NCBI RefSeq assembly: GCF_020037125.1
Contig: NZ_JAIQDG010000001.1
Location: 248,001 to 312,000, forward strand
Source: Myxococcus sp. RHSTA-1-4
Lineage (GTDB): Bacteria > Myxococcota > Myxococcia > Myxococcales > Myxococcaceae
Direction: 5' to 3'
Length of the DNA stretch: 64,000 bases
Part shown: positions 11,478-13,715 of the stretch, one piece after another
Position numbering within the stretch: the first letter of the stretch is position 1
Layout of the letters: every line of letters begins with the position of its first letter
Translations under genes and position numbers: made by a program
Notes under the pieces: generated by a model
Databases searched by the model: none
Told to the model about the DNA's origin: nothing
Seen by the model: only the letters and a program-made list of their open reading frames with translations

Positions 11478-12014
11478 ATGGCCACGAAGAAGAAGACGAG
11501 CACGAAAAAGAGCACCGGCCGGGCACCGGCGCGGAAGAAGACAGCGGGCAAGGCCCCGGCGGGCAAGGCCCCGGCGCGCAAGAAGACGGCGGGCCGGGCC
11601 CCGGCGCGCAAGAAGGCGAAGCTGCCACCCGCCCCACAACAGCAGGTGGGCCCGGCGGAGAACCCCCGGGCGAAGGCGATGGCCCAGCGCATCGCCCAGC
11701 TCCTGCTCGACAAGAAGGCCCAGGACGTCGTCATCCTCGACGTGCGCGGGATGACGTCCTACGCGGACTACTTCGTCATCGCCTCCGGCGAGAGCGACCG
11801 CCAGGTGAGCGCCATGGCGGAGAACGTCCAGGTCCAGCTCAAGACGCCGGAGGAGGGCGGCCTGCGCCCCATCGGCACCGAGGGCCTGGAGACGGGCCAG
11901 TGGGTGCTGCTGGACTACGGCGAGGTGGTGGCGCACCTGTTCCTCACGGACCTGCGCGCCCACTATGACCTCGAGGGCCTCTGGGCCGACGCGGCGCGGG
12001 AGAAGGTGGCCTGA
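11478..12014 (+). CDS. rsfS: Ribosomal silencing factor RsfS with a basic N-terminal extension
   Basis: RsfS binds ribosomal protein uL14 and blocks joining of the two subunits when nutrients are short. The family domain starts near residue 62 and includes [22 protein letters not shown] and [14 protein letters not shown]. The protein is 178 residues against the usual 105-120. The extra length is an N-terminal tail of about 50 residues made of [17 protein letters not shown]-type repeats, similar to histone H1 tails. The gene order rsfS-rlmH is conserved in many bacteria. The ATG lies nine bases after a TAGGGT hexamer, with no Shine-Dalgarno. Confidence 0.93.
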
Positions 12015-12475
12015 AGGTCCGCCTCCTCTCCATTGGCAGGGACCGCTCGGGCCTGTACGAGCCCGCGGTCCAGGAGTACGCCAGGCGTCTGGGCCACTAC
12101 ACCCGCTTCGAGCTGGTGGAGCTGTCCGAGGCCAGCGGCAAGAAGCTCAAGCCCGGAGAGGCGAAGGCCGCGGAGGCCGACGCCATCCTGGCGAAGCGCA
12201 AGCCGCAGGACTGGATTGTGGCGCTGGACGAGCGCGGCTCGCTCCTCGACTCGGTGGAGCTGAGCCGCTACGTGGGCAAGGCCCAGACGGGCGCGAAGGA
12301 TTTGCTCTTCGTCATCGGCGGTGACGAGGGGCTGGACGAGCGGGTGCGGGAGGCGGCGAACCTGACGCTGTCGCTGTCGAAGATGACGCTGCCGCACCGG
12401 CTGGCGCGCGTGGTGCTCATCGAGCAGCTCTACCGCGCCTTCACCATCCTCAAGGGCGAGCCCTACCACAAGTAG
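12011..12475 (+). CDS. rlmH: 23S rRNA (pseudouridine-1915 N3)-methyltransferase RlmH, probable CTG start
   Basis: The product is 154 residues, the family's normal length. RlmH methylates pseudouridine 1915 of 23S rRNA in the assembled 70S ribosome. The SPOUT-fold motifs [13 protein letters not shown] and [24 protein letters not shown] are present. The family N-terminus ([18 protein letters not shown]) begins at a CTG at 12011. No ATG, GTG or TTG occurs in this frame between the stop at 11966 and position 12116, and a GTG start at 12116 would delete the first strand and helix. The CTG sits in a CTGA overlap with the rsfS stop, with GGAGAAGG just upstream, which supports coupled non-canonical initiation. 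Confidence 0.9.
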
Positions 12476-12560
12476 GCAACCAGGCGGGCCGGGCCCTGAC
12501 GTGAAGGGCCTGGCCTGGAGCACCCGTCAGGGCCGGACGAGGAGTGGCGTCAGCGGGGGC

Positions 12561-13715
12561 ATGAGCACCGCCGCCGAGAATCCCGCCTCTTCCTCCGCGC
12601 CCCCCGCGCATGTCCGCGTCATCGCCTCGTCCCAATCGTGGATAGAGGGCGAGGCCGTGCGCCAGCTCGAAGCCATGGCGCGACTGCCCGGCATGCGCCT
12701 GGCGGTGGGGCTTCCGGACCTGCACCCCGGCAAGGGGGCCCCGGTGGGCGCCGCCTTCACGTCCGAGGGCTTCCTCTATCCCTACCTCGTCGGCAACGAC
12801 ATCGGCTGCGGCATGGGACTGTGGGACGTGGACCTGCCGGCGCGGAAGGCGAAGCCGGAGCGGTGGGCGGCGAAGCTGGATCTGGAAGGGCCGTGGAGCG
12901 GAGACGTCGAGGGCTTCCTGCACGAGCAGGGCGTGAAGTCCTCCGGCTTCGAGATGGCGCTGGGCACGGTGGGCGGCGGCAACCACTTCGCGGAGGTGCA
13001 GCGGGTGGACGCGGTGCACGACGCGGAGGCCTTCGCGGCGCTGGGGTTGGCGGTGGACCGGTTGCTGCTGCTGGTGCACTCGGGCTCGCGGGGCCTGGGC
13101 GAGGCGATTCTCCGGGCGCACGTGGACCGGCACGCGGCGGGCGGGCTGGTGGAGGACTCGGCGGAAGCGCGGACGTACCTCGCGCGGCATGACCACGCGG
13201 TGGCGTGGGGCCGGGCCAACCGGGCGCTGGTGGCGCGGCGGGTGCTGGACGGCATCGGCGCGCAGGGCCGGAGGGTGCTGGACGTCTGCCACAACAGCGT
13301 CACCCCCTGTCGCGCCGGAGGACGGATGCAGTGGCTGCACCGCAAGGGCGCGGCCCCCTCGGATGAAGGCCCGGTGGTGATTCCCGGCAGCCGCGGAGCA
13401 CTGAGCTACCTGGTGGCGCCGGTGGGAGACGGGACGGGCAGCGCGCACAGCCTGGCGCATGGCGCCGGCCGCAAGTGGACGCGCACCGCCGCCCGGGAGC
13501 GCATGCGCGAGCGCTTCACCGCGGAGTCCCTCACGCGCACGGCCTTCAAGAGCCACGTGGTGTGTGAGAACAAGGACCTCCTCTTCGAGGAGGCGCCGCC
13601 CGCGTACAAGGCCATCGACCGCGTGGTGACGGACCTGGTGGAAGCGGGCCTCGTGCGCGTGGTGGCCACGCTGGCGCCTGTCCTGACGTATAAGACGCGC
13701 TCCCAGGGGGAGTGA
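12561..13715 (+). CDS. RtcB-family RNA ligase, type associated with release factor H
   Basis: The product is 384 residues, shorter than canonical RtcB (about 405-480) and matching the release-factor-H-coupled subfamily. RtcB joins 2',3'-cyclic phosphate and 5'-hydroxyl RNA ends using GTP and Mn2+. The metal-binding Cys is C83 in GNDIGCGM. Other core motifs are GGGNHFAE, HSGSRGLG, VCHNSV and PGSRG, and the guanylated His is H300 in SLAHGAGR. All key residues are present. Neither prfH nor rtcA is next to it. An earlier ATG-like start at 12501 would add 20 residues; 12561 is preferred because it opens MSTAAEN and the added part looks random. Confidence 0.88.
   Translation: MSTAAENPASSSAPPAHVRVIASSQSWIEGEAVRQLEAMARLPGMRLAVGLPDLHPGKGAPVGAAFTSEGFLYPYLVGNDIGCGMGLWDVDLPARKAKPERWAAKLDLEGPWSGDVEGFLHEQGVKSSGFEMALGTVGGGNHFAEVQRVDAVHDAEAFAALGLAVDRLLLLVHSGSRGLGEAILRAHVDRHAAGGLVEDSAEARTYLARHDHAVAWGRANRALVARRVLDGIGAQGRRVLDVCHNSVTPCRAGGRMQWLHRKGAAPSDEGPVVIPGSRGALSYLVAPVGDGTGSAHSLAHGAGRKWTRTAARERMRERFTAESLTRTAFKSHVVCENKDLLFEEAPPAYKAIDRVVTDLVEAGLVRVVATLAPVLTYKTRSQGE

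Follow-up and report, generated by a model that had tools for sequence, protein, structure and literature searches.

Translation of rlmH in the myxobacterial genome analysed here very probably begins at a CTG codon that overlaps the stop codon of the upstream gene rsfS, by re-initiation coupled to the translation of rsfS and with the CTG being tolerated as a start. Comparison with relatives places the N-terminus of RlmH at CTG 12011 and shows that the codon is CTG in many of them; beyond this, we infer re-initiation, the use of fMet-tRNA and a low demand for RlmH.

The window (the whole stretch of 64,000 nucleotides that was analysed, from an 11.2-Mb genome in 134 contigs) carries both genes on the forward strand. 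The product of rsfS (11478..12014, 178 amino acids), a ribosome silencing factor, was matched in profile searches by PF02410 (E 5.8e-31) and TIGR00090 (E 1e-33), both past cut-off. Downstream, rlmH (12011..12475, 154 amino acids) encodes a probable 23S rRNA pseudouridine-1915 N3-methyltransferase of the SPOUT type, as judged from PF02590 and solved RlmH chains. The CTG at 12011-12013 overlaps the TGA of rsfS at 12012-12014, so that the junction, read from the sequence and from homologous junctions, is a -4 stop-start overlap in which the shared NTGA is CTGA (12011..12014); it departs in this from the usual definition of such overlaps, in which the start is ATG, GTG or TTG. A preliminary description of this DNA had placed the start of rlmH inside this overlap, and the frame reading bears it out. 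The rlmH frame opens at 11969, right after a TGA at 11966-11968, and contains no ATG, GTG or TTG before the GTG at 12116..12118, which is codon 36 and would, as had been claimed, drop the first 35 residues. A second in-frame CTG lies at 11981, within rsfS. The ORF lister gave for this frame the 119-aa form (12116-12475) only and, since rlmH appears to start at CTG inside an overlap, gene finders limited to ATG, GTG and TTG would likewise shorten this protein by 35 amino acids, and others of its kind.

When translated from CTG 12011, RlmH matched PF02590 (SPOUT_MTase) with 166.4 bits (gathering threshold 27; E 6.2e-49), residues 1-153 covering positions 1-154 of the 154 in the profile. Both E. 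coli YbeA/RlmH (1ns5), over 1-154 on 1-154, and S. aureus RlmH (4fak) aligned from residue 1, and six of the ten matched solved RlmH sequences aligned from residue 1 or 2. The remaining four matched, in their best stretch, only from residue 79 or 80, and their entry names suggest joined constructs. The RlmH of the window shares 98% identity with its counterpart in Pyxidicoccus fallax. None of the nine NCBIfam matches, all of them RlmH models, reached its cut-off (best 138.9 bits versus 207; TIGR00246, 121.9 bits against 149.7); therefore, the name RlmH rests on Pfam, the full-length structure alignment and the rsfS neighbour. The family N-terminus falls at CTG 12011, as had been proposed. Two objections had been foreseen in the preliminary description, namely that homologues might lack the first 35 residues and that the CTG might be a sequencing error. 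Homologues carry these residues (Pfam and E. coli 1ns5), and an error at 12011 is excluded because the same position holds CTG in 50 genomes, each of a different species.

To place this codon in its order, 145 genomes were searched; RlmH was found in 138, and its start was read in all 138. The codon at the RlmH N-terminus was CTG in 50, GTG in 62, ATG in 22, TTG in three and ATC in one. In the family of the window, Myxococcaceae (96 genomes searched, 92 with an RlmH match and four without), CTG was the commonest codon, being present in 45 of the 92 genomes and in 14 of the 24 genera, followed by GTG (40), ATG (6) and TTG (1); it is thus a conserved non-canonical codon, and probable start, at the family N-terminus. 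The CTG species include Pyxidicoccus fallax, P. caerfyrddinensis, Myxococcus qinghaiensis, M. eversor, M. dinghuensis, Hyalangium versicolor, Archangium violaceum and A. lansinium, and GTG was read in M. xanthus, M. vastator, Citreicoccus inhibens and Corallococcus loci. Outside this family, all 46 starts were read (GTG 22, ATG 16, CTG 5, TTG 2, ATC 1), the single ATC having an ATG directly before it. The five CTG starts were all in -4 overlaps and all in one other family, in five of its 12 genomes, and one genus there has both GTGA and CTGA.

Over the order, 64 rsfS/rlmH junctions were -4 overlaps (CTGA 49, GTGA 11, ATGA 2, TTGA 2), and 44 of the 45 CTG starts of the window's family sit in one. 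In this tally, four overlaps missed by the motif filter (L188, L189, L190 and L193) were assigned by eye from translations, no rsfS stop was recognised in four genomes of the family (L200, L204, L206 and L208), and a further family (f5), in which no rsfS was seen next to rlmH in any of its 23 genomes, was counted as non-overlapping. The preliminary description had set ATGA in place of CTGA in related myxobacteria as a confirming result. Other NTG codons were indeed found in the same overlap, but not ATGA in near relatives: ATGA junctions were confined to one other family of the order, and near relatives had CTGA or a GTG a few bases on. In a small genome of the window's family (G110), the CTG of rlmH lies 93 nt past the rsfS stop, behind AAGGAG, and another genome of that genus (G111) has TTG at the same place.

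The absence of any ATG, GTG or TTG between the upstream stop and the CTG was common to 35 of the 45 CTG genomes of the family. The other 10 had such a codon in the open frame before the CTG, at codon -10, at -37 or beyond -200, and 12 of the 45 had GTG or TTG at codon 5 or 8; alternative starts are therefore possible in some of these genomes. The last sense codon of rsfS in the overlapping CTG genomes was GCC, TCC, ACC, GTC or CCC. In the GTG genomes of the main clade, TGA, TAG or TAA is followed by one, four or six bases and then by the GTG (spacer-GTG genomes). On an unrooted tree of 63 main-clade genomes (L191 was left out for its two extra codons), CTG and GTG interchange three times. We take CTG as the probable older state in this clade, since it is also found in eight genera outside it. 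One database entry of the set, BNCN01000002.1 (L052), is titled Comamonas sp. KCTC 72670 and has a Myxococcus-like rlmH locus, identical to that of G024, of the same genus, over the stretch running from 60 bases upstream of the start through the stop; the title looks wrong.

A run just upstream of the CTG had been pointed out, and it was compared with the 3' end of the genome's own 16S rRNA, GGATCACCTCCTTTCT. The best pairing within CGGGAGAAGG was CGGGAGA (11997..12003), a Shine-Dalgarno-like site within rsfS, 7 nt before the CTG, with a duplex energy of about -7.4 kcal/mol. The CGG codon of this site is kept in 62 of the 63 main-clade genomes, even though the genome of the window uses CGC for arginine more often than CGG (0.55 against 0.30). 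Over the 44 CTG overlaps of the family, the median energy was -7.4 kcal/mol and only three sites were weaker than -5 (-2.9 to -4.2 kcal/mol), whereas the eight GTG overlaps of the family had a median of -0.95 kcal/mol, all eight being weaker than -5. Comparison of CTG with the rest over 29 genus-by-type groups gave p ~0.006, a value not corrected for phylogeny. In the second family, three of the five CTG genomes reached -7.1 kcal/mol and two only -3.2 and -3.8, its three GTG overlaps stood at -5.3 kcal/mol, and the spacer-GTG genomes had a median of -7.4 kcal/mol, equal to that of the CTG overlaps. Compensation of CTG by a Shine-Dalgarno site is not universal. A hairpin of 73 nt masking the site (-32.5 kcal/mol) was also considered; it was no better than shuffled sequence (z -0.02) and was therefore not counted as evidence for coupling, and it folds differently in the relatives compared.

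In a sample of 464 kb around the window (about 4% of the genome, with a crude coding score), 52 TGA stops had a coding -4 frame downstream (GTGA 21, ATGA 17, CTGA 11, TTGA 3). Ten of the 11 CTGA cases had an ATG, GTG or TTG within 13 codons, in four of them immediately, as CTGATG, and rlmH was the only one without. The idea that CTG starts are numerous in this genome was therefore dropped for the sample. A relaxed initiator tRNA was likewise rejected as a candidate, as the anticodon stem is of the usual GGG/CCC type in both initiator tRNA genes found.

The anatomy of the junction suggests that translation of rlmH depends on termination of rsfS. A ribosome ending rsfS at its TGA would stay on the mRNA or, alternatively, a 30S subunit would be held by the Shine-Dalgarno site inside rsfS, and initiation would then occur at the overlapping CUG with fMet-tRNA. 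Because the start takes its first base from the third position of the final rsfS sense codon, the NTGA forms would be interchangeable without a change in RsfS, and synonymous drift in a GC-rich genome could swap ATGA, GTGA, TTGA and CTGA. Coupling, mostly together with a strong Shine-Dalgarno site, would keep initiation sufficient, and we propose that CTG is tolerated because enough initiation is left for an enzyme that is presumably required at low levels. In other lineages, a GTG just past the rsfS stop would serve as the start. The homologous junctions suggest that, in overlapping genes, synonymous drift upstream can rewrite the start of the gene downstream, and the natural series of ATGA, GTGA, TTGA, CTGA and spacer-GTG junctions could serve as a gauge of how far coupling and a Shine-Dalgarno site replace a proper start.

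Other placements of the start were weighed by the evolution of the surrounding codons. In 36 main-clade CTG genomes (L191 included, compared without gaps over the codons on either side of the start codon), pN/pS was 0.21 for codons 2-35 in the rlmH frame, against 2.28 and 1.90 in the other two frames, and 0.40 for codons 36-150. For the 14 codons before the CTG, the value was 8.8 when they were read in frame with rlmH and 0.25 in frame with rsfS. Therefore, codons 2-35 evolve as protein in the frame of rlmH and the 14 upstream do not. This makes it very improbable that translation starts at GTG 12116, with the 119-aa form as the real protein and the conserved part upstream untranslated or serving otherwise. 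That GTG is the first canonical start in frame, codon 36 holds the same rank in 16 of the 45 CTG genomes of the family, and Pfam still matches the fragment (E 2.5e-39), but over profile positions 44-154 only, where most solved RlmH sequences align from their very beginning. Across the 45 genomes, moreover, the first canonical codon is number 5, 8, 15, 20, 27, 35, 36, 38, 57, 65, 70 or 82, so that they share no common internal start. Initiation further upstream in rsfS, at CTG 11981 or, in a few relatives, at a GTG, giving an extended RlmH, is less credible still. Four of the 45 genomes (L028, L030, L196 and L199) do have a GTG at codon -10, but the upstream codons lack protein constraint in this frame, a stop at codon -15 in 28 of the 36 main-clade CTG genomes leaves no usable start beyond it in those 28, and the rlmH frame of the spacer-GTG genomes is offset relative to rsfS, so that the upstream residues are not homologous. 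Just as little probability is given to an RsfS-RlmH fusion made by a -1 frameshift before the rsfS stop, with the CTG being no start. At the junction the two frames are offset by exactly one base, as such a fusion would need, but no slippery heptamer was seen by eye (GTG GCC TGA, GTG TCC TGA, CTG TCC TGA), in many relatives at least one base lies between the genes and the same N-terminus carries ATG or GTG, and the frame offset of some cannot be joined by a -1 shift.

That the CTG has been selected as a deliberately weak start, perhaps sensitive to IF3, rather than merely tolerated, is unlikely, although several observations favour it. The third position of the final rsfS sense codon, which is the first base of the start, changed once among 52 overlapping pairs from the family, less than any of 104 other four-fold sites, and never in 35 main-clade CTG genomes, where eight of 95 other sites were equally unchanged. 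It is C in all 63 main-clade genomes of the tree, those starting at GTG using the GTG downstream of the stop, and both IF3 genes of the genome appear to lack canonical starts. The authors of the work on FIB rep, a plasmid gene starting at CTG, infer that this codon, combined with a good ribosome-binding site, allows just enough expression (PMC11983097). Against selection, the same C showed no change in the 28 spacer-GTG genomes either, where it is not the start base (22 of 97 other sites were also unchanged), and C precedes 123 of the 226 TGA stops of coding ORFs in the 464-kb sample. Constraint on this C as part of a start, apparently strong over all overlaps, is by that control reduced to a weak hint, and its persistence may reflect stop context. 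Since the C is unchanged in the spacer-GTG genomes and usual before TGA here, we prefer toleration of the CTG to its active retention. Helix 69, methylated by RlmH, is contacted when ribosomes terminate and are recycled. As a further reading, which we regard as rather improbable, the CTGA overlap would be a regulatory start: re-initiation would let the CUG work, its weakness would make RlmH output sensitive to IF3 and recycling, and a methyl feedback would be possible, as ribosomes without the methyl group could, given these contacts of helix 69, re-initiate differently at the CUG and so adjust the supply of RlmH.

Tolerance of a CTG start has to be set against what is reported of this codon. 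CUG gave 0.86% of AUG expression in E. coli and makes up 0.024% of bacterial starts (PMC11497404), switches to CUG were four among about 69,000 reconstructed starts (PMC5622118), and a selection in mycobacteria, with a Shine-Dalgarno site in place, did not enrich CTG (0.03%; PMC4633059). Its weakness in E. coli and lack of enrichment in mycobacteria were counted against the CTG start of rlmH. This poor codon (under 1% of AUG) is apparently kept here in a conserved gene, through 14 genera and in a second family. Weak starts are reported to accompany strong Shine-Dalgarno sites (PMC5622118), and re-initiation is both increased by such a site and rendered less sensitive to inhibition by IF3 (PMC2268962).

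The nearest known case, rep of the FIB replicon, has like rlmH a CTG start that occurs naturally, lies behind a good ribosome-binding site and is conserved in related replicons, and most annotations place it 14 codons downstream, at a GTG, the same error as predicted for rlmH; unlike rlmH, it is carried by a plasmid, a stop-start overlap is not described in the part of the paper available, and its CTG was proven by N-terminal analysis and a CTC mutant, where that of rlmH is supported by comparison (PMC11983097). CTG starts are also cited for Deinococcus deserti rpsL and E. coli ano, but in single organisms and, in the available text, with no CTGA overlap described (PMC5960689). Known -4 overlaps with termination-reinitiation have stop and start sharing four bases, as at rsfS/rlmH (PMC10666635, PMC7246954), where the homologous ATGA, GTGA and TTGA are present too. 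Those of one study are ATGA or GTGA, with CTG and CUG absent from its main text (PMC10666635), and the other notes that, with any base but A in front of UGA, the start would be one of the less favoured UUG, GUG and CUG (PMC7246954); unlike the present junction, a real CTGA case is not named in the available parts of either. Streptomyces sigR resembles rlmH in its conserved non-canonical start (32 of 34 genomes of the genus), its conserved strong ribosome-binding site and its coupled neighbour, but it starts at GTC, is the upstream partner and is repressed through IF3, a control that for rlmH may only be suspected (PMC5472188). In infC (IF3), ATT or ATC is a non-canonical start in a translation gene, as in rlmH; unlike CTG, these differ from ATG in the third and not the first base, and the gene is autoregulated by IF3 (PMC5472188). 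Among the matches listed, judged by titles, abstracts and term counts, none dealt with CTG as the start of rlmH or of a myxobacterial gene, and no paper was found on Myxococcus with a CUG start codon or on rlmH and rsfS with a start codon. As far as could be found, the retention of a CTG start in several genera, within a CTGA overlap, is new.

Some further features of the genome were recorded. It has two infC paralogues, L243 (G000:C39, frame 1444-2214) and L244 (G000:C50, frame 1132-2187), and both appear to lack canonical starts and to use ATC. One frame is without ATG, GTG or TTG before the family N-terminus and offers only an ATC behind GGAGG, and the other has ATC/ATT behind AAGGAG, its nearest GTG being 19 codons upstream. 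IF3 of M. xanthus (dsg) reportedly starts at AUC. In the window, the N-terminus of RsfS is extended by a lysine/arginine-rich stretch containing APARKK-type repeats (11478-11640), with 19 K or R among the first 62 residues and the Pfam domain beginning only at residue 71. Downstream of rlmH lies a gene for an RtcB-family RNA ligase (12501-13715; NF007153, PF01139), at a distance of about 25 bases if the listed GTG is its start.
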